DNA of 9,987 bases from Chloroflexota bacterium (GTDB lineage: Bacteria > Chloroflexota > Anaerolineae > UBA3071). Location of the stretch: NCBI GenBank assembly GCA_014383605.1, contig JACNHM010000185.1:1-9987 (forward strand), read 5' to 3'. The position numbers were made by a program, and so were the translations under genes. Within the stretch, counting starts at the first letter, position 1; the number at the start of each line of letters is the position of its first letter. A model generated the notes under the pieces. That model saw only the letters and a program-made list of their open reading frames with translations. It made no database searches and had not been told where the DNA came from. Positions 1,300 to 9,987 of the stretch are shown piece after piece.

Positions 1300-4200
1300 A
1301 TGAACTCAGTAGAACGTTCCCAACTGATCCAGGTATTGCGCGGTCGTCGCGATGCCATCGCCGACAATTGGTGCAAGGCCATCGCACAGATCAGTTTTGT
1401 ATCACTCGAAACGACGGAAACGCGGCACCGCCTCGTCGAATTGACCCGGCAGGTCATCACAGCTCTGCTCGCGGAACCGTTCGAGCATGCCCAGGCTCAG
1501 GCCATTGGCGTGTCGCTGGCAGGCTTACATTACATCGAACCCGCGGCCCTGGGCCAAACCCAAGAAGTGCTGGCACAGCAGCTAGTCGAAGGCTTGCCCG
1601 CCGGCCAAGTTGTCGCGTTGCAGCCTCGCCTGGCTGCGTTGCTCGGCGGACTGGCGACTGGTTTTTCCGAGCAGGTTCATGAGATCATTCTCAACGAGCA
1701 AGAACGGGCTCGGGATGCACTCACCATTGCGCTCCAGCAAGCTGAGGAAGCATTGCAGAGGGCAAATGACGAATTGGAACAGCGGGTGCAGGAACGCACC
1801 ACCGAACTGCGCGCAATCAATGAGTCGCTACAACGCGAGATCACCGAGCGCAAGCGGGCGGAGGAGGAACTTGACCGCTTTTTCAACTTCTCATTCGATA
1901 TGCTATGCATCTCTGGTTTTGATGGCTATGCCAAGCGTGTGAACCAGGCGTTCGAAAAGACGCTTGGTTACACTGCCGAGGAGATCCTTGCCAAACCGTT
2001 CCTCGATTTCGTCCACCCCGAAGACCGTGCTGCAACTGTTGCCCAGTTGGAGAGGCTTGCCGCCGGCATACCCACCGTCTACTTCGAGCAGCGCTGTCGC
2101 TGTAAGGATGGTTCATACAAGTGGCTGGCGTGGACCAACGTTCCGGCCGTTGAGGAAGGCTTGATGTATGCAGTCGCCCGCAACACCACCGAACGCAAAC
2201 GAACCGAGGAGGCGATCAAGCGGCGCAACCGGGAGCTGGCTGCCCTCCATGCCATAGCCAATACGACCAGCCGACATCTGCATCTCGAAGAGGTGCTGGA
2301 TGTCAGCCTGGAGACGGTCAAGGACATCGTGGAGGCTGATATGGGATGCGTCCTCTTGGCAGAAGGCTCCTCGCGCACATTGCGCGTCCGCAGTGGGCAA
2401 GGATTGTCGCCGCAACTGGTGCAACGGCTGGAGGCCATAACGCTGGACGAGCGCTATTGGCCGAAAGGAGCCCCCTTGGACATCGCTAACCTGTGGCGGC
2501 TCAGTGACTCGGTCAAGGACATAGCCATGAACGCCGGGGTGACTCCTTGCATCCTATTGCCCTTGCGATGGGAAAGAACTGCCTTAGGGATTGTGCTGCT
2601 GGCTGACGGTGAGGGCAATGCCCTTGTCCAGTGGAGCATGGAGTTCCTGATGACGGTCAGCGACCAGTTGGGCATGGCGGTGCGGAACGCACAGTTGTAC
2701 GAGGAGGCCCAACGAGAGCTGTCCGAGCGCAAGCGGGCGGGGAAAGCGCTGCGGGAAAGCGAGGAGCGCTACCGCAGCTTGTTCGAAGGTGTGCCTGTGG
2801 GACTCTTTCGCATTACACCGGACGGGCATTTCCACGACGCTAACGCGGCTCTGTTGAAGATGCTGGACTATCCGGACAAAGAGTCCCTGCTGGCAGTCCC
2901 TTCGGCTGACCTGCAACTGCACGCGACCCCTGAGGATCGCCAGAAACGGCAGGCCATGCTACAGCGCGACGTAACCCTGCGCGATCTCGAAGTGCAACTG
3001 CGTCGTCGCGACGGCGGCGTCATTTGGGCACGGAGTAACTTCCGGGCCGCCCACGATGCTGATGGTCAGGTGCTCCACTACGAGGGTAGTGTGGAGGACA
3101 TCACCGAGCGCAAACGGGCGGAGGAGGCGCTGCGCCGCCGGGCCGAGGAGTTGGCCGCGCTCCAGGCAACCGTGCTCGAGATCGTTGCTCCCCACGATTT
3201 GCCTACCCTGCTCCAGACCGTTGTCGAGCGGGCAGCACTGCTGCTGAATGCTCTGGGCGGTGGGCTGTATCTATGCGATTCGGTCCGACGGGAAGCCCGC
3301 TGCGTGGTAAGCTATAACACTCCTCATGATTACACCGGGACGATGCTCAAGTATAGTGAAGGTGCGGCTGGTACCGTGGCCCAGACCGGGAAGCCGCTGA
3401 TCATTGACGACTACCGTACCTGGAGTAGACGGGCCACTGTCTATGAGGAGGAGCAGCCTTTCACCTCTGTACTCAGCGCACCGATGATCTGGCAGGGCCG
3501 GGTGACAGGGGTGATCCATGTCCTGCACGATGTGGAAAGCCGGCGCTTCACTGAGGCCGACCTTGACTTGCTCACCTTGTTCGCCAACCATGCGGCCATC
3601 GCTACGGAGAATGTCCGGTTGTACGAAGAAGCTCAGAAAGAAATCTCCGAGCGCAAGCGGGCGGAGGAGGCGCTGCGAAAGGCTCACGCCGAGTTAGAAG
3701 TGCGAGTGCAGGAACGAACGGCAGACCTGGTGAAAGCCAACGAAGCATTACGGGCTGAGATCAGCGAGCGGGAACGAGCCGAGGAAGCACTGCGGCAGAG
3801 CGAGGAGCGCTACCGCAGCCTGTTTGATCGGGTGCCCGTGGGGCTCTACCGCACCACGTCGGGGGGGCAGGTTGTGGACGTCAACCCGGCCCTGGTACAG
3901 ATGCTGGGCTACCCGGACCTGGAGTCCCTGCTGGTGGTCAATGCCACCGACCTGTATGTGGATCCTGAGGATCGCATGCGGCAGCAGGCACTGTTGGAGC
4001 GAGAAGGGGTCGTGCGTGATTTCGAAGTGAAATTGCGCTGCCACGACGGAGCACCCATCTGGGTGCGGGATACTATCCGGGTCATGCGGGATGCCAACGG
4101 GCAGGTGCTGTACTACGAGGGGGGGCTAGAGGACATCACCGAACGCAAGCGGGTGGAGGAGGACATCGAACAGCGTAATCGAGAACTGGTTGCCCTACTG

Positions 4201-5379
4201 ATGGCCAGCCAGCGGATGGCTACCCACCTTGATCCGGACGAATTGCTGGGCGACATCGCCAGCTTTATCGTGGAGACACTGCCGGCTGCCGACGCCTCTT
4301 CGCTGTGGCTCTACGACGAAGGGCGAAACGAATTGGTGATCCACGCCTGGGCCGGCTTGGACGACGAGGCCCTCTCGGGATTGACGCTGCCACCCGACAC
4401 CGGCTTGGTAGGGCTTGTGTATCGCAGCCACCAGCCGCGTATTGTGGACGACGTTGCCAGCGAACCCGCCTTTAAGGACTTCGACCGCCCAGCCCTCGGC
4501 CCTCCGCGCTCGGTGCTGGGCGTGCCTTTGCTGGTCGAGGGCCGGCCAATTGGCGCTATGTTTGCAGATAACTTCTCGCGCCCACGAGCCTTTGGGGAGA
4601 ATGATATGCATTTGCTCCAGTCACTAGCCGGCCAGGCGGCAGTTGCCATTCAAAATGCCCAACTGTTCGAGCGGGTGCGCACCGGGCGCGAGCGGCTGCA
4701 GGCTCTCTCCCGCCGGCTAGTGGAGGTGCAGGAAGCTGAGCGCCGTCACATCGCTCTCGAACTCCACGACGAGATCGGCCAGCTCCTGACCGGGCTTAAA
4801 CTCGGCCTGGAAGTTGGCACGCGCTTACCGGCTGACGCGGTCAGGGCCCGCCTGGGCGAAGCACAGGCGTTGGTCAGTGAACTTATGGCGCGGGTGCGCG
4901 ATCTGTCGCTCGACCTACGGCCGGCAATGCTGGACGACCTGGGCCTGCTGCCCGCGCTGCTGTGGCATTTCGAGCGTTATGCCGCTCAGACCAATGTGCG
5001 CGTGACTTTCGAGCACCACGGGTTGGAGGGACGTTTTGCGCCAGAAGTTGAAACGGCCGCCTATCGCATTGTGCAGGAAGCGCTGACCAACGTCGCCCGT
5101 CACGCTGGCGTGAGCGAGGTGATGGTGCGGCTCTGGGCCAACCAGGACACACTTGGCGTGCAGATCGAAGACCAGGGTACCGGTTTCGATCCTGAGGCCG
5201 CGCTGGCCTCCGGCGCCACCAACGGCCTGGCCGGGATGCGCGAGCGACCCGTTTTGCTGGGCGGTCAACTGACAGTGGAATCGGCGCCGGGGGCTGGGAC
5301 ACGCGTGACGGCTGAATTGCCTCTGCGCGACTGGCTCGAAAGGAGGAGTTATGACCGTTTCCATTCTGTTGGCCGATGA
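1300..5379 (+). CDS. Soluble multi-PAS/GAF sensor histidine kinase, NarL-partner (HisKA_3) type
   Basis: 1359 aa, started at the ATG at 1300 behind GAGGAGA (1288-1294). No signal peptide or membrane segment is visible, so it should sense cytoplasmic or diffusible cues. Domain order by approximate residue: helical N-terminal region 1-125 (family not named with certainty); coiled coil 138-193; PAS1 191-305; GAF1 308-471; PAS2 486-607; GAF2 616-777; coiled coil 778-830; PAS3 832-947; GAF3 961-1124; HisKA_3 1133-1200; HATPase_c 1240-1350. In HisKA_3 the phosphoacceptor is expected to be H1156 in the ELHDEIGQ motif. The ATP site shows the N-box with N1264 (QEALTNVARHA), the G1 box D1291-Q-G-T-G, and a G2-like NGLAGMRER (1308-1316). 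PAS2 and PAS3 are clear internal duplicates, both starting SEERYRSLF and ending EDITERKR. It would autophosphorylate and pass phosphate to the regulator whose gene overlaps its 3' end. The ligands of the PAS and GAF domains cannot be read from sequence. Confidence 0.93.
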   Translation: MNSVERSQLIQVLRGRRDAIADNWCKAIAQISFVSLETTETRHRLVELTRQVITALLAEPFEHAQAQAIGVSLAGLHYIEPAALGQTQEVLAQQLVEGLPAGQVVALQPRLAALLGGLATGFSEQVHEIILNEQERARDALTIALQQAEEALQRANDELEQRVQERTTELRAINESLQREITERKRAEEELDRFFNFSFDMLCISGFDGYAKRVNQAFEKTLGYTAEEILAKPFLDFVHPEDRAATVAQLERLAAGIPTVYFEQRCRCKDGSYKWLAWTNVPAVEEGLMYAVARNTTERKRTEEAIKRRNRELAALHAIANTTSRHLHLEEVLDVSLETVKDIVEADMGCVLLAEGSSRTLRVRSGQGLSPQLVQRLEAITLDERYWPKGAPLDIANLWRLSDSVKDIAMNAGVTPCILLPLRWERTALGIVLLADGEGNALVQWSMEFLMTVSDQLGMAVRNAQLYEEAQRELSERKRAGKALRESEERYRSLFEGVPVGLFRITPDGHFHDANAALLKMLDYPDKESLLAVPSADLQLHATPEDRQKRQAMLQRDVTLRDLEVQLRRRDGGVIWARSNFRAAHDADGQVLHYEGSVEDITERKRAEEALRRRAEELAALQATVLEIVAPHDLPTLLQTVVERAALLLNALGGGLYLCDSVRREARCVVSYNTPHDYTGTMLKYSEGAAGTVAQTGKPLIIDDYRTWSRRATVYEEEQPFTSVLSAPMIWQGRVTGVIHVLHDVESRRFTEADLDLLTLFANHAAIATENVRLYEEAQKEISERKRAEEALRKAHAELEVRVQERTADLVKANEALRAEISERERAEEALRQSEERYRSLFDRVPVGLYRTTSGGQVVDVNPALVQMLGYPDLESLLVVNATDLYVDPEDRMRQQALLEREGVVRDFEVKLRCHDGAPIWVRDTIRVMRDANGQVLYYEGGLEDITERKRVEEDIEQRNRELVALLMASQRMATHLDPDELLGDIASFIVETLPAADASSLWLYDEGRNELVIHAWAGLDDEALSGLTLPPDTGLVGLVYRSHQPRIVDDVASEPAFKDFDRPALGPPRSVLGVPLLVEGRPIGAMFADNFSRPRAFGENDMHLLQSLAGQAAVAIQNAQLFERVRTGRERLQALSRRLVEVQEAERRHIALELHDEIGQLLTGLKLGLEVGTRLPADAVRARLGEAQALVSELMARVRDLSLDLRPAMLDDLGLLPALLWHFERYAAQTNVRVTFEHHGLEGRFAPEVETAAYRIVQEALTNVARHAGVSEVMVRLWANQDTLGVQIEDQGTGFDPEAALASGATNGLAGMRERPVLLGGQLTVESAPGAGTRVTAELPLRDWLERRSYDRFHSVGR

Positions 5380-6004
5380 TCATCCTGTCGTCCGCCAGGG
5401 GCTGCGGGCCTTGCTGGAGGGCGAGTCGGATTTCCGCATTATTGGCGAGGTGGGCGATGGGCTGGAGGCATCTCAACTGGCCGAACGTCTGCAGCCGGAC
5501 GTGCTGGTGCTCGACCTGATGATGCCCGGCCTGAACGGCCTGGAGGTCACGCGGCAAGTCAGCCAGCGTTCACCGCGGACCCGCATCGTCATCCTCTCCA
5601 TGCACGCCAACGAGGCCTACGTGCTGGAGGCGCTGAGAAACGGGGCCACCGGTTACGTCCTCAAAGATTCCAGCGCAGCCGATCTGGTGCGGGCGGTGCG
5701 CGAGGTGACCGCCGGCCGGCGCTACCTTAGCCCGCCGCTTTCCGAGCGTGCCATCGAGGCCTACACGCAAAAAGCCAAAGTCGCCGCGCTGGACCTGTGT
5801 GACACGCTAACTACCCGCGAGCGGGAGGTGTTGCACCTGGCGGCCGAGGGCCACACCAACCGGGAGATTGCCGACCGGCTGCACATCAGCCCGCGCACCG
5901 TCGAGGTCCATCGCGCCAACATGATGCACAAACTGGGCCTGCGTACCCAGACCGATCTGATCCGCTACGCCCTGCGGCGGGGGATTTTGCCGATGGAGGA
6001 ATAG
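5351..6004 (+). CDS. NarL/FixJ (LuxR-type) response regulator
   Basis: 217 aa, the normal size for this family. The receiver spans residues 3-120 with acidic pair D9-D10, phosphoacceptor D55 (VLVLDLMMPG), switch residue S83 and K105. A LuxR-type helix-turn-helix spans ~153-212, with LTTREREVL, the TNREIADRLHIS turn and the TVEVHRANMMHKL recognition helix. The ATG sits 3 nt after AGGAGGAG (5341-5348) and 29 nt inside the kinase gene, so translation is probably coupled. It should be phosphorylated by the preceding kinase and bind DNA as a dimer. Targets are unknown; the inverted repeats at 1139-1150 and 6310-6322 are only candidates. An intrinsic terminator follows 41 nt after the stop. Confidence 0.95.
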   Translation: MTVSILLADDHPVVRQGLRALLEGESDFRIIGEVGDGLEASQLAERLQPDVLVLDLMMPGLNGLEVTRQVSQRSPRTRIVILSMHANEAYVLEALRNGATGYVLKDSSAADLVRAVREVTAGRRYLSPPLSERAIEAYTQKAKVAALDLCDTLTTREREVLHLAAEGHTNREIADRLHISPRTVEVHRANMMHKLGLRTQTDLIRYALRRGILPMEE

Positions 6005-6044
6005 AGGAGCGGGGAACAGTCATCCCCCGCACCCCTGCACCCAC

Positions 6045-6075
6045 AGCCCCGTACTAAAACTACGGGGCTTTTTTT
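6045..6075 (+). terminator. Intrinsic terminator of the kinase/regulator operon
   Basis: AGCCCCGTA (6045-6053) pairs perfectly over 9 bp with TACGGGGCT (6061-6069) around the 7-nt loop CTAAAAC. The run of seven T (6069-6075) overlaps the last paired base. This is a textbook rho-independent terminator 41 nt after the regulator stop codon. Its right half is repeated at 6760-6778 without a left arm. Confidence 0.92.
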
Positions 6076-6113
6076 GGTTAATTACGTAGGTTTACGGATA
6101 GACAGGCCTGGCA
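6055..6113 (+). repeat. Duplicated terminator/promoter cassette, copy A
   Basis: This 59-bp block aligns with 6760-6818 at about 53 of 57 aligned positions, plus two 2-nt indels (by eye). It carries the loop end and right arm of the terminator, the T-run, a shared TTAATTACGTAGGTTT block (6078-6093) and the -35 box TAGACA (6099-6104). Similarity fades in the promoter spacer. Copy A directly follows the operon terminator's left arm, whereas copy B lacks that arm. Confidence 0.85.
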
Positions 6114-6127
6114 GGAGAGTGTATACT
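6099..6127 (+). promoter_or_regulatory. Promoter of the receiver-only gene
   Basis: TAGACA (6099-6104), 17-bp spacer, TATACT (6122-6127). It lies inside and just past repeat copy A, only 24 bp after the terminator T-run. A transcript would have a leader of about 218 nt that includes the inverted repeat at 6155-6251. Confidence 0.65.
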
Positions 6128-6154
6128 ATAAAGGACGGTTCTTTAGGATTTCGC

Positions 6155-6251
6155 GTGGTCAAGGTGAGAAATTTGCCACGAATTGCACGAATTAACACGA
6201 AAAAATAAAATTAGTGAAAATTCGTGTCATTCGTGGCAAAGAATTGACCAC
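6155..6251. repeat. Long imperfect inverted repeat (possible MITE-like or REP-like element)
   Basis: The inner arms 6172-6193 and 6219-6240 are 22 nt each and complementary except at two positions; the outermost 12 bp (TTTGCCACGAAT / ATTCGTGGCAAA) are perfect. The 25-nt loop is AT-rich. An outer perfect pair, GTGGTCAA (6155-6162) and TTGACCAC (6244-6251), extends the symmetry to 97 bp. Its AT-rich composition differs from the neighbouring GC-rich genes. From memory, similar CACGAAT-rich palindromes occur dispersed in many environmental genomes. It has no coding capacity and no T-run, and could fold in the leader RNA of the next gene. Confidence 0.75.
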
Positions 6252-6309
6252 TTGGCAAACCAACCACGCAAACTACCAGAGAGCCGGGTTCACAAAATCG
6301 GCGATTGAC

Positions 6310-6322
6310 GACTTCCGAAGTC
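6310..6322. promoter_or_regulatory. 13-bp palindrome, candidate operator
   Basis: GACTTC (6310-6315) and GAAGTC (6317-6322) are perfect complements about a central C. The site is 30 nt before the start codon of the receiver-only gene and downstream of its likely promoter. It could be a protein-binding site or a small leader hairpin. No family assignment is possible. Confidence 0.3.
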
Positions 6323-6351
6323 TTAACTTAGTAGACAGAGGGAGATAAAAG

Positions 6352-6762
6352 ATGAATCCTATTTCCGTTCTGCTCATAGACGACAATCCCACCTTTTTGC
6401 GTATTGCCACCCGCTTCTTGCAGGAGCACGACGATGTGGTCGTCGTTGGCGCAGTAGGTGGGAGCGAAGAGGCCCTGGCCCAAGCCCAAGCCCTGCAGCC
6501 GCAGGTTGTTTTGCTCGAGCTAGGCATATCCGACTTGACTGGCCTGGAGACGATCCCCAGCCTGCGGAGCCTGATGCCCGAAGTGGGCATCATCGCTATG
6601 ACACTGATGGATACTAACGGCTACCGGTCGGCGGCGCTGGCAGCCGGTGCGAGCGAGTTCATCCCCAAGGCCACTCTGAACACCGACCTGCTGCCAGCCA
6701 TCCGGCGGGTGGCGCAAGGCGACCGACCCCGACAAAGGCCGGCTGACAGGACTGCTACTTAA
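6352..6762 (+). CDS. Receiver-only response regulator with Glu at the phosphoacceptor site
   Basis: 136 aa, ATG at 6352 behind AGAGGGAG (6337-6344). Residues 4-121 are a complete CheY-like receiver with acidic pair D10-D11, switch residue T84 and K106. The phosphoacceptor position is Glu: E56 (codon GAG at 6517-6519) in VVLLELGIS, where the family has LLDLxMP. Glu is a classical phospho-mimic in other receivers, so it may be locked in an active-like state or have lost signalling. There is no output domain: after AIRRVAQGD, where NarL-type proteins continue into a linker and helix-turn-helix, only a short Arg/Ala/Asp-rich tail remains. The TAA stop (6760-6762) is formed by the first bases of repeat copy B, which suggests 3' truncation. 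It may interact with the adjacent kinase or be a decaying paralogue of the upstream regulator. No kinase is adjacent downstream. Confidence 0.88.
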   Translation: MNPISVLLIDDNPTFLRIATRFLQEHDDVVVVGAVGGSEEALAQAQALQPQVVLLELGISDLTGLETIPSLRSLMPEVGIIAMTLMDTNGYRSAALAAGASEFIPKATLNTDLLPAIRRVAQGDRPRQRPADRTAT

Positions 6763-6818
6763 AACTACGGGGCTTTTTGGCATTAATTACGTAGGTTTCC
6801 GTATAGACAGACCCGGCA
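6760..6818 (+). repeat. Duplicated terminator/promoter cassette, copy B
   Basis: Second copy of the block at 6055-6113, exactly 705 bp downstream. TAAAACTACGGGGC and TTAATTACGTAGGTTT are identical in both. Here the sequence before it (GGACTGCTACT) does not contain AGCCCCGTA, so the terminator hairpin cannot form and only the right arm plus five T remain. The copy supplies the stop codon of the receiver-only gene and the -35 box of the riboswitch promoter. Confidence 0.85.
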
Positions 6819-6832
6819 AAATCGTTTATAAT
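6804..6832 (+). promoter_or_regulatory. Consensus promoter driving the riboswitch and protease
   Basis: TAGACA (6804-6809), 17-bp spacer, perfect TATAAT (6827-6832). The expected start (~6839) falls just before the first bases of the GEMM-I aptamer, which is strong mutual support for both calls. Confidence 0.8.
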
Positions 6833-6841
6833 ATAGTAAGA

Positions 6842-6930
6842 TCGCGAGCGAAAAGGCAAACCCATCGAAAGATGGGGACGCAAAGCCACGGGTCCTCCGC
6901 TCAGCGGGCCAGGATAGCCGGGTTGCCGAC
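6842..6930 (+). promoter_or_regulatory. GEMM-I (cyclic di-GMP-I) riboswitch aptamer
   Basis: The conserved core is present in order. GGC (6855-6857) and AAA lead into a perfect hairpin CCCATC-GAAA-GATGGG (6861-6876) whose GAAA tetraloop is the one that docks in this class. Next come the invariant GACGCAAAGCC (6877-6887) and a second hairpin GGTCC/GGGCC (6891-6895/6906-6910). The conserved 3' strand AGGATAGCCGGGTTGCCGAC (6911-6930) closes a weak outer stem with bases near 6842-6847. By hand alignment to the V. cholerae Vc2 aptamer, the ligand-discriminating position G20 is G6855, favouring c-di-GMP over 3',3'-cGAMP. The RNA begins a few bases after its promoter and ends in a terminator before a secreted protease gene. 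Family identity is confident; the direction of regulation is not determined. Confidence 0.9.
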
Positions 6931-6995
6931 ACCAGGTGAAGGTGAAAAGCTTCCGGCCCTGCGCTTTAAGGGGCAAGGATAGCCGGGTTGCCGAC
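6931..6995 (+). repeat. Second, half-preserved GEMM-like segment with exact 20-nt repeat
   Basis: The last 20 nt of the aptamer recur exactly at 6976-6995, 65 nt downstream. They are again preceded by a hairpin in the P3 position: GCCCT (6956-6960) pairs with GGGGC (6970-6974). CCGG (6953-6956) could also pair with CCGG (6983-6986). Before it, CACC/GGTG (6930-6933/6941-6944) and AAAAGC faintly echo the P2 hairpin and CGCAAAGCC, but the invariant CAAACC and GACGCAAAGCC motifs are absent. It is either a decayed tandem aptamer or a duplicated 3' half recruited into the expression platform. Its end overlaps the terminator's left arm. Confidence 0.7.
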
Positions 6996-7033
6996 TCAGT
7001 GAGGTGAGAGTCAGTAGCTCGGCTTTTTGTTTT
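6981..7033 (+). terminator. Riboswitch expression-platform terminator
   Basis: AGCCG (6981-6985) pairs with CGGCT (7020-7024), enclosing an inner stem GACTC/GAGTC (6993-6997/7008-7012), followed by TTTTTGTTTT (7024-7033). An alternative pairing, GCCGA (6990-6994) with TCGGC (7019-7023), uses the same right arm. Both left-arm motifs occur again in the first aptamer (6916-6920 and 6925-6929), so ligand-dependent competition is plausible. The protease start codon lies 28 nt after the T-run. Confidence 0.72.
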
Positions 7034-7061
7034 AGGAAGGTGTCAAAAAAAGGAGGAAATC

Positions 7062-9987
7062 ATGGAGAAAGCAGTGGAACGTGCAGGATTCATTAGATGG
7101 TATAAAGCTTTCAGTCTCCTGTTGACGGTAGCGTTGCTGGTGCCGCTAATGGTGACGGCGCCAGCGCCAGAGGCGGCTCCCCGCGCCCAGCCGCTACTGT
7201 TAGCCATGGCCGCCGAGCGGCCCGAGGAGACGGTGCGTGTCATCGTGCAGAAGGTCGCGCAGGACACCAGCGTCGAGGATCTGGCGGCCCGGTTGGGCGG
7301 GGTGGTCACCAGGGACCTCTACATCATCAACGCCTTTGCGGCGGAGCTACCGGCCAAGGCGTTGCCGCGCCTGGCCAGGACTGCTGGCGTGCGCTGGGTG
7401 TCCCTGGACGCGCCAGTCTTCGGGGCCGACGACGAGGACGACGACAAGCCCAGCGGGATCATTACCGTTCGCGATGAATTCGGCGCCGTTTCCTACAAGA
7501 ACAACGACGGCGCCGTCTACTGGACTGGCGATTGGGTAGAGATTGGAGAAAGCGACGGTCCTGGAGTCGGTGACGTAGCAGTCACGAGCTTCCTGGGTGG
7601 TACCAGGCAGGGGCTTCGTATCCAGAACGCGAACAAGGGCATACGGCGCGAGGCCAATCTATCCGGCACTGGATCGGCTGTGTTGAGTTTCGACTATCGC
7701 CGCAAAGGGTTTGAGAAGGACCACTACGTCGCTGTCGAAATATCGGCCGATGGCGGTGCCTCGTGGAAAGAACTAGACCGCTTGGCGGGGCCGGCTACCG
7801 ACCCCGACGTGCAGTTCGTAAGTTACGACATTTCGAGCTACGTATCCAGCAACACCGCCATCCGGTTTGTCAGCTCTCCGTCCCTGGGCGAGCAGGACAA
7901 GCTTTATATTGACAATGTTTACATCGAGTACACCCTCACCGATGGCAGTAGCCTTGATGCTGTTAAAAGCAAGCCTGCGTTCCCCCGTGACAGCTTTGAT
8001 GCCATTGAGACTGAGGCTCAGCTCGCCAGCAGCGGTGGCACCGAGACCGTTCGTGATGAATTCAATGCCGTGTCCTACAGCAACAACGATGGGACGCAGT
8101 CCTGGTCTGGCGATTGGGTCGAGGATGATCCAGAGGTAGGTGGCGAAGGCCCTTCTGCTGGACAGGTGCGGATAGTTGATGGTGAGTTGCGGCTGGACGA
8201 CCAACCCGATACGGGTGGCGAGCCTAGTGTCGGTCGTGAGGTGGACCTCTCAGGGGGCGTTACAGCCGCCACGTTTAGCTTCGATTTTCGCACCTCCTGG
8301 GGAGTGGACTGGGACGATGCGATTGCGGTGGAAGTGTCGAGCGACGGTGGCGCGAACTACACGGTGCTCGAGACGTTCACCGGGATCTGGGGCGCGACCT
8401 GGGGCTCGAGAAGCTTCGATATATCGGGCTACATCTCCGCCGACACCATGATCCGGTTTCGGGTGGCAAACAAGTACGGTGGTAGCGATGAGTTCTTCTT
8501 CGCCGACAACATTCAGATCGAATATGTCGGAGGCTGCTCGGAGTGCATTGACACCTCGAATCTGGCGAATGCGTATATCCGCGCCATTGGCGCCGATCAA
8601 CTGTGGAACGAGGCGCTCTACTTGCAGGGACAGGGCGTCACCGTGGCTGTCGTGGATAGCGGCATCGCCCCACACGACGACCTGCTGGACGGCGTGGGGA
8701 ATTCCCGCGTGGTGGCGCAGGTGGATCTCACCGGCGGCCTGGGCCTGCCCGACGACTTCTACGGCCACGGCACTCACGTCGCCGGCATCATCGGTGGTAA
8801 CGGTGCCAAATCCGACGGCACCTACATCGGCGTGGCTCCCAAGGTCAACCTGGTGGATGTCAAGGTGATAGACGACAACGGGACAGGCACCACCTCGGAC
8901 GTGGTCGCCGGCCTGCAGTGGATCCTCGACAACAGGGCTGTGTACGATATCCGGGTGGTCAATCTCTCCCTCAACAGCAGCGTCGCTGAGTCCTACAACA
9001 ACAGCCCACTGGACGCGGCGCTGGAGATTCTGTGGTTCAACAACATCGTGGTGGTGGTCTCCGCCGGCAACAATGGCGGTGGGGCGCTATACGCGCCGGC
9101 CAATGATCCCTTTGTGATCGTCGCGGGTGCGGCGGACGACATGGGCACAGCCGACATCGCTGATGACGTGCTGTCGTCATTCTCGGCGTACGGAATGACG
9201 GTGGATGGCTTTGTCAAGCCGGACTTGATATCGCCAGGTAGAGACGTCATCAGCCTGTTGGCCAGCGATGACTGCAATTTGGCGCTGGCCCATCCGGCTC
9301 ATGCGGTCGCTGGTCCTTACGGTAATTACTATTTCCGCATGTCGGGAACCTCGATGGCCTCGGCGGTGACGGCGGGGGCCGTGGCGCTACTGCTTCAGGA
9401 CGAGCCCGGTCTGACGCCTGATCAGGTGAAGCACCGCCTGATGGCGACGACGCAGCCTTTCGACGGCCCCACGCCCAGCTCGACCGGCGCGGGCTACCTG
9501 GACATCTACGCCGCCGTTCACGGCGCCACGACGGGGAGTGCCAACACCGCCAAGATCACCTCCACCTCCCTTAGAGACGGCAACTACGAGATATACGTGA
9601 TGGATGCCGACGGCCTTAACCAGACCCGCCTCACTAACAATGCGGCCTCTGACGACAGACCGGCGTGGTCACCAGATAGGTCCAAGATCGCCTTCGCCTC
9701 TGACCGGAATGGCAATTGGGAAATCTACGTCATGGACGCCGACGGCTCCAATCCGATCAATCTCACCAACCATGCATACAATGACCGTTATCCGGTGTGG
9801 TCACCAGACGGCTCCCAGATCGCCTTCTACAAGTACTATCCCGATAACTGGGAGATCTATGTAATGGACGCCGACGGCGCCAACCAGACCCGCCTCACCT
9901 TCAACGCAGTCTCTGACTCTTATCCGGCGTGGTCCCCCGACGGCTCTCAGATCGCCTTCCACTCTGACCGGGACGGCAACTATGAGA
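7062..9987 (+). CDS. Secreted subtilisin-like (S8) protease with PD40 propeller, 3' end beyond window
   Basis: One uninterrupted frame of 975 codons from ATG 7062 (AGGAGG at 7051-7056) to the window edge. Approximate residues: signal peptide 1-42 (hydrophobic 16-33); I9-like propeptide 57-122; acidic linker 123-128 (DDEDDD). Two related beta-sandwich domains follow (135-290 and 329-488), each opening TVRDEF.AVSY.NNDG and containing W(T/S)GDWVE and S.DGGA. CSEC (492-495) precedes the S8 catalytic domain (~505-822). The catalytic triad is D532 (VAVVDSGI), H569 (GHGTHVAG) and S764 (SGTSMAS), with oxyanion N670 (SAGNN). All four key residues are intact, so it should be active. From ~835 run 44-aa repeats of the TolB/PD40 propeller type, with EIYVMDADG and WSPDGSQIAF. 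It should be exported and cleave extracellular protein; the added domains probably bind substrate or surface. The upstream c-di-GMP-I riboswitch and terminator imply second-messenger control. The C terminus is not seen. Confidence 0.93.
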   Translation, partial: MEKAVERAGFIRWYKAFSLLLTVALLVPLMVTAPAPEAAPRAQPLLLAMAAERPEETVRVIVQKVAQDTSVEDLAARLGGVVTRDLYIINAFAAELPAKALPRLARTAGVRWVSLDAPVFGADDEDDDKPSGIITVRDEFGAVSYKNNDGAVYWTGDWVEIGESDGPGVGDVAVTSFLGGTRQGLRIQNANKGIRREANLSGTGSAVLSFDYRRKGFEKDHYVAVEISADGGASWKELDRLAGPATDPDVQFVSYDISSYVSSNTAIRFVSSPSLGEQDKLYIDNVYIEYTLTDGSSLDAVKSKPAFPRDSFDAIETEAQLASSGGTETVRDEFNAVSYSNNDGTQSWSGDWVEDDPEVGGEGPSAGQVRIVDGELRLDDQPDTGGEPSVGREVDLSGGVTAATFSFDFRTSWGVDWDDAIAVEVSSDGGANYTVLETFTGIWGATWGSRSFDISGYISADTMIRFRVANKYGGSDEFFFADNIQIEYVGGCSECIDTSNLANAYIRAIGADQLWNEALYLQGQGVTVAVVDSGIAPHDDLLDGVGNSRVVAQVDLTGGLGLPDDFYGHGTHVAGIIGGNGAKSDGTYIGVAPKVNLVDVKVIDDNGTGTTSDVVAGLQWILDNRAVYDIRVVNLSLNSSVAESYNNSPLDAALEILWFNNIVVVVSAGNNGGGALYAPANDPFVIVAGAADDMGTADIADDVLSSFSAYGMTVDGFVKPDLISPGRDVISLLASDDCNLALAHPAHAVAGPYGNYYFRMSGTSMASAVTAGAVALLLQDEPGLTPDQVKHRLMATTQPFDGPTPSSTGAGYLDIYAAVHGATTGSANTAKITSTSLRDGNYEIYVMDADGLNQTRLTNNAASDDRPAWSPDRSKIAFASDRNGNWEIYVMDADGSNPINLTNHAYNDRYPVWSPDGSQIAFYKYYPDNWEIYVMDADGANQTRLTFNAVSDSYPAWSPDGSQIAFHSDRDGNYE
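9576..9987 (+). repeat. PD40/TolB-type propeller repeats, 132-nt period
   Basis: The Asn codon of the DGN/DNW motif falls at 9582, 9714, 9846 and 9978, exactly 132 nt (44 aa) apart each time. Each unit reads D-G-N-x-E-I-Y-V-M-D-A-D-G, then a Leu-Thr strand, then P-x-W-S-P-D-x-S-x-I-A-F. Three complete units and the start of a fourth are visible, and a propeller would need more copies past the window end. Confidence 0.85.

Follow-up and report, generated by a model that had tools for sequence, protein, structure and literature searches.

The gene for an S8 (subtilase) protease in a Chloroflexota bacterium is preceded by a riboswitch of the c-di-GMP-I (GEMM-I) type that has a single 5′ half (the P1 5′ strand, P2 and strand 5′A) and, downstream of it, two identical 3′ halves. 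Both lie in the window, by which we mean the whole 9,987-nt stretch of DNA analyzed here. The most economical reading of the duplicated half would be that one 5′ half serves two 3′ halves, pairing with the near copy and then with the far copy, and that c-di-GMP held by the second arrangement would keep the terminator from forming and turn the protease gene on. We give this whole explanation, which leans on modeled folds, a probability of roughly 0.45. The riboswitch class is a known one and its target is recurrent; the duplicated half is what is unusual, and we infer its function from the pairings that it allows. The features of the leader and the gene are collected in Table 1.

Table 1. Features of the leader and the protease gene (window coordinates)
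Feature	Position (strand)	Description	Basis
Sigma-70-type promoter	6804–6832 (+)	−35 TAGACA 6804–6809, 17 nt, −10 TATAAT 6827–6832; 11/12 matches	
P1 5′ strand	6842–6850 (+)	predicted partner 6992–7002 (far copy); strongest rival partner the P3 loop, ~6894–6911	prefix folds
End of J1/2 and P2	6855–6881 (+)	G20 = 6855; GC pair 6856–6857/6880–6881	
P2 hairpin CCCAUC-GAAA-GAUGGG	6861–6876 (+)	GNRA loop	Rfam alignment and fold
Position 47	6882 (+)	A in the window; G in RF03167 consensus	alignment
5′A, P3 5′ strand AGCCACGGGUC	6884–6894 (+)	same 10 pairs possible with either 3′ copy	
3′A, near copy of aptamer 3′ half, AGGATAGCCGGGTTGCCGAC	6911–6930 (+)		Rfam alignment and repeat search
Ghost second aptamer	6932–6995 (+)	shortened P2 stem-loop, P3 arm retained; holds 5′B and 3′B	
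5′B, degenerate P3 5′ strand AAGCUUCCGGCCCU	6947–6960 (+)	partners 3′A or 3′B	
3′B, far copy of aptamer 3′ half	6976–6995 (+)	identical to 3′A, 20/20 nt; C92 = 6991	
Intrinsic terminator	6982–7028 (+)	5′ arm 6982–6997, 3′ arm 7008–7023, then TTTTT	fold
Ribosome-binding site GGAGG	7052–7056 (+)	5 nt before ATG 7062	read from sequence
S8 (subtilase) protease	7062–9986 (+)	hydrophobic N-terminus, reelin-like insert, C-terminal PD40 repeats; open at window end	

An earlier note on this DNA had described a promoter, a c-di-GMP-I aptamer, an intrinsic terminator and a ribosome site, in that order, before an S8 protease gene with intact catalytic motifs, and all of these parts and their order are borne out. 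A consensus scan found two promoter-like sites in 6400–7400, where shuffled sequences gave a mean of 0.2, and the transcript is expected to start near 6839–6840. The terminator is absent from the list made by the consensus scan and was seen by folding instead, as a predicted stem of 15 pairs with one mismatch (6982–7023) and TTTTTGTTTT directly after it; the region 6840–7035 folds with a z score of −2.76, and 2 of 200 shuffles folded equally well. What does not stand is the treatment of aptamer and terminator as separate parts: the terminator 5′ arm lies largely within the second copy of the 3′ half, 3′B, and its competitor is the fold of 6842–7002, not that of 6846–6931.

A search with the Rfam covariance models, which the same note had proposed as a check on its aptamer, gave a significant match at 6846–6931 (68.6 bits, E 6e−15; gathering score 59). 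The class I call is upheld, with the qualification that the top family is RF03167, the c-di-GMP-I-GGC variant, and not plain c-di-GMP-I. By alignment and folding, both P2 with its GNRA loop and P3 with its bulge, which acts as a receptor, are present. The pocket bases G6855 (G20), A6882 (A47) and C6926/C6991 (C92) are likewise present by alignment, the numbering 20/47/92 having been transferred to the window by our own alignment mapping. In class I, according to the available part of PMC9049102, A47 is conserved and critical for ligand stacking, and G20 and C92 are pocket bases. The G that marks the RF03167 variant at position 47 is not found in the window, and presumably it is this base from which the family takes its name. 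Among 142 aptamers recognized by a motif that left position 47 free (the window and those of loci L073–L272), 141, the window included, have A there and one has C. Because this position holds A in the window, c-di-GMP is the likely ligand even though the GGC model wins, and it is the bases G20, A47 and C92 that point back to a c-di-GMP-type pocket. RF03167 is the best Rfam model, and a true GGC-type aptamer binding another ligand would explain this, but with the distinguishing base so rarely other than A and with G20 and C92 canonical we consider that very unlikely. In Chloroflexota many RF03167 matches carry A, not G, at position 47, and the family label therefore seems to make the variant look commoner in this phylum than it is.

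The exact 20-nt repeat formed by 3′A and 3′B, which the earlier note had overlooked, has an expected number by chance of 0.00. Pairwise alignment shows that the whole P3 arm is doubled, its 5′ strand and loop diverged and its 3′ strand identical over 20 nt. An assembly artefact was considered as the source and is thought unlikely because both repeats have diverged surroundings. The second element falls short of a complete aptamer, and the leader is not a tandem of two complete ones: RF01051 matches the ghost at 19.6 bits, where its gathering score is 35 (E 0.049 for the 136 bases searched), and skips most of the shortened P2. Its degenerate strand 5′B can pair with either copy (−18.0 kcal/mol for 5′B:3′A and −15.2 kcal/mol for 5′B:3′B), as can 5′A, and each 3′ strand can have one partner at a time.

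Compared with known c-di-GMP-I riboswitches (RF01051/RF03167), the leader is alike in its plan of P2, P3 and a predicted P1, its GNRA P2 loop, G20/A47/C92 and intrinsic-terminator platform, and it differs in having the 3′ half twice, the second copy with a reduced P2 and doubling as terminator arm. Tandem c-di-GMP-I riboswitches number 347 doublets and 12 triplets in the available text of PMC9481103, which presents them as riboswitches arranged together, and the triple Bc3–5 riboswitches are explicitly complete in that of PMC4759541. As far as those texts go, two related elements in one leader are the common feature; the second element of the window, in contrast, has nothing left but P3 and its 3′ half, and to make it a full aptamer the 5′ half of the first would be needed. 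A glycine riboswitch with a ghost aptamer (PMC6944388) offers another decayed tandem member that retains a useful part, and the available part of that paper mentions a combination of the 5′ half of aptamer 1 with the 3′ half of aptamer 2 and deems it unlikely. The glycine ghost is described there as a scaffold for tertiary contacts, whereas the ghost in the window would supply competing strands. We infer that the leader is a c-di-GMP-I riboswitch derived from a partly decayed tandem. Selection for one shared 5′ half may be at work, or the repeat may be plain decay.

Growing transcripts were folded by minimum free energy and partition function, as equilibrium prefixes. The near pairing 5′A:3′A has a probability of about 0.9 in transcripts ending at 6926–6956 (0.72 at 6938) and is down to 0.00–0.01 at 6962–6980, after 5′B appears. 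The tracked 5′B:3′A pairs are at 0.10, 0.92, 0.39 and 0.14 at 6962, 6968, 6974 and 6980, respectively, the values dropping because both strands pair in another register too. At 6986 near pairing (0.41) exceeds the far pairing 5′A:3′B (0.26), and at 6992–7016 far pairing is at 0.53–0.78 against 0.20–0.43 for near pairing. The far fold is the optimum at 6990–7010; at 7010 the near fold without P1 sits 0.8 kcal/mol above it, and 5′B:3′B reaches 0.42. By 7016 the inner stem of the terminator has reached 0.68, and from 7022 the terminator as a whole is at 0.92–1.00. This order of folds is unchanged at 37, 50 and 60 °C and with dangles 0 or 2. Removal in silico of one 65-nt period yields a clean P1–P2–P3 aptamer that excludes the terminator, and in the model such a leader is an ON-switch design.

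P1 is predicted with the far copy, at 0.34, 0.84, 0.31 and 0.11 at 6998, 7004, 7010 and 7016; near P1 is at 0.00 in the prefix populations and at most 0.01 across the temperature and dangle variants. The P1 5′ strand pairs with the far strand at −7.6 kcal/mol and with the near strand at −3.6 kcal/mol. When the far strand is shuffled, 893 of 5000 versions do as well, so its match to the P1 5′ strand is not significant by this measure; among strand pairs taken across relatives 6% are as strong as far P1 and 38% as strong as near P1. Better partners for the P1 5′ strand are the P3 loop (−12.5 kcal/mol) and sites near 7010–7017 (about −9 kcal/mol).

These folds suggest a course of events in which nascent 5′A would pair with 3′A, making P3 and no P1, until 5′B captures 3′A and releases 5′A. 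The latter would then go mostly to 3′B, in a fold that has a complete P1 and carries the 3′A:5′B hairpin inside P3, and the terminator 3′ arm would finally capture 3′B. If the far aptamer is competent to bind, c-di-GMP on it would retain 3′B, termination would be prevented and the protease would be ON; early c-di-GMP on the near aptamer would leave 5′B free to cover 3′B, and the sign would also be ON. On the modeled folds, a transcriptional ON switch by one route or the other is reasonably probable. It is doubtful, though conceivable, that use of one 5′ half twice creates two ligand checkpoints, the first being cleared by the ghost strand so that termination is settled at the second. The riboswitch probably controls the protease gene directly. 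If the shared 5′ half works in this way, partial duplication can make a riboswitch exchange strands serially with no need of a second complete sensor, and it would be one route for a tandem riboswitch to decay without loss of control.

The predicted sign depends on kinetics or on a requirement for P1, and from equilibrium energies one would expect OFF or an unresponsive leader. At 7024 the free optimum is −77.5 kcal/mol; the near aptamer with the terminator is at −73.9 (−66.4 with its own P1), and the far aptamer is at −71.3 (−68.1 with P1 enforced). The near aptamer with the terminator is the more stable, and thus an equal ligand bonus would favor OFF unless binding needs P1.

Terminators in other leaders give a setting for this question. 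Of 130 leaders put through a simple scan, 11 have a terminator arm that shares sequence with the 3′ strand of the aptamer itself (an ON design), and 4 of these 11 precede S8 genes; a further 31 have a separate terminator, and in 88 none was found; the scan undercounts, as L120, L215 and L235 (among the 88) look ON by eye and the terminators of L127 and L160 were missed. The window is of the separate-terminator type with its near aptamer and of the ON type with its far aptamer. An OFF design, with the terminator arm complementary to the aptamer 3′ strand (p ≤0.05 against shuffles), was found for 17 of the 31 separate terminators. The S8-linked L079 and L185 pass this test and look like OFF switches, and the S8-linked L073, L177 and L150 fail it.

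Such OFF switches bring up a reading of the window in which c-di-GMP is bound by the near aptamer, nothing hinders the terminator from forming on 3′B and the second copy is a relic, the leader being an OFF switch or a weakly responsive attenuator. The near aptamer and the terminator are indeed compatible, at a cost of 3.6 kcal/mol relative to the optimum at 7024 without ligand, and the published Bc1 c-di-GMP-I riboswitch, in the available part of PMC11218506, binds its ligand with expression unchanged. That 20 nt have stayed identical in diverged surroundings and that the far fold is the optimum at 6990–7010 suggest, however, that 3′B is in use, and the OFF-kind antiterminator complementarity in the window is not significant (p 0.11); we hold this reading to be rather unlikely. 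An ON switch could also arise with the near aptamer as the single c-di-GMP sensor and 5′B as a relay, such that 5′B pairs with 3′A and the terminator forms when ligand is absent, and bound ligand frees 5′B to act on 3′B as an antiterminator. The score of the near aptamer, the stability of both 5′B pairings, the strong near pairing before 5′B emerges and the rise of 5′B:3′B at 7010 all agree with this. Yet near P1 does not form, and the terminator duplex (−27.6 kcal/mol) far exceeds 5′B:3′B, and so we think such a relay unlikely.

Among the aptamers placed, the arrangement has one example. Of these 130 (142 minus 12 that stayed unplaced; at least the S8-linked L073 and L187 look misplaced), the window alone has an exact copy of the 3′ half without its own 5′ half. 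A 3′-half copy lies within 300 nt of 19 placed aptamers, and six were initially flagged as without their own 5′ half; L098, L109 and L204 were dismissed on finding that 5′ half (AGCAAACC), and L117 and L188 have 13-nt matches with 2 mismatches and no aptamer seen around them. The duplicated-half architecture was not found in any relative examined. A DNA search with the full leader in the class of genome G011 (below) gave matches in 18 of 158 genomes, and none of the matches listed reached beyond query position 96 in a query of 222, so that they covered the first aptamer alone. A DNA search with 6905–7035 (0/400) was run without a positive control, so its empty result carries no weight. An exact 16-mer scan of viral contigs gave 12 stretches with one match in each. 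A non-exhaustive literature search turned up no recognizable account of a shared or duplicated riboswitch half, nor of a Chloroflexota subtilase gene headed by a c-di-GMP riboswitch.

Tandems were seen as well. The fetched Chloroflexota loci include 16 tandem loci with 17 pairs of neighboring aptamers, and in five pairs (L098, L109, L204, L207 and L263) the first aptamer has A20 and the second G20; the reverse order occurs in none. A20 is a mark of 3′,3′-cGAMP (c-AMP-GMP) variants, and these leaders may respond to two signals. Pfam Sortase is matched by the genes downstream of L109, L204 and L263 (L204 above the curated cut-off, L109 and L263 below), the gene after L207 matches LysM, and that after the L098 leader (L202) has no Pfam match. 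A20 aptamers outside any recognized tandem are those of L082, L242 and L253. A possible decaying tandem is found at L076, L090 and L093 (G003:C28:34424–34783), where three aptamer-like elements stand in a row and the middle one scores 27.7 bits.

The pairing of a riboswitch of this type with an S8 protease gene is well supported and recurs in Chloroflexota. RF03167 matches occur in 91 of 400 genomes of this phylum, that of genome G015, and exceed the cut-off in 70, with 0 of 14 control genomes matching. For 22 of 142 aptamers, an S8 gene on the same strand begins no more than 1 kb downstream (248 ORFs examined there), and none of 157 ORFs upstream on that strand is an S8 gene. The set includes loci fetched for their protease and was searched with an S8 profile built from the window's domain and its downstream-set matches, hence tuned to the downstream set. 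Among loci obtained through RNA hits the link is found in 14 of 99, or in 8 of 92 once seven loci fetched on seeing a nearby S8 gene are removed; this set comprised 117 loci, 18 of them without a motif aptamer or with an already counted one, and over-cut-off hits were fetched in part. The closest case is Herpetosiphonaceae bacterium KatS3mg057 (G011), where the riboswitch (C1:1020385–1020469) has the S8 protease directly downstream; that protease has 66% identity over the catalytic domain and a Peptidase_S8 score of 157.6 bits. Four of four further S8 relatives checked match in Pfam. A scan of genome contigs with the protease gave 72 loci, mostly through the PD40 part and directly with no leader homolog, and 18 of the 72 were used as entry to genomes.

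The protease of the window matches Peptidase_S8 with 156.6 bits, together with PD40 repeats, and has all the motifs of the D–H–S triad (VDSG, HGTHVAG, SAGN and SGTSMAS); the 3′ end of the gene is beyond the window. Its N-terminus, judged hydrophobic by eye, suggests a protease of the secreted kind. The recurrent link suggests that such a protease belongs to the c-di-GMP regulon in Chloroflexota, with ON-type and OFF-type platforms across leaders. In Clostridioides difficile, as far as the available sources on ZmpI/PPEP-1 go, c-di-GMP is also tied to extracellular proteolysis, although that enzyme is a metalloprotease and the one in the window an S8 subtilase.

Upstream of the leader, 1300–6762 encodes a PAS/GAF histidine kinase, a LuxR-type response regulator and a lone receiver-domain protein; these regulators have no tblastn match at E 1e−15 in the closest leader locus, L173. 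A mir-785 match in Rfam (E 0.12) was judged to be chance, as were other weak families. This weak match falls on an inverted repeat at 6172–6240 (TTTGCCACGAATTGCACGAATTAA...), which resembles a mobile or repeated palindrome.
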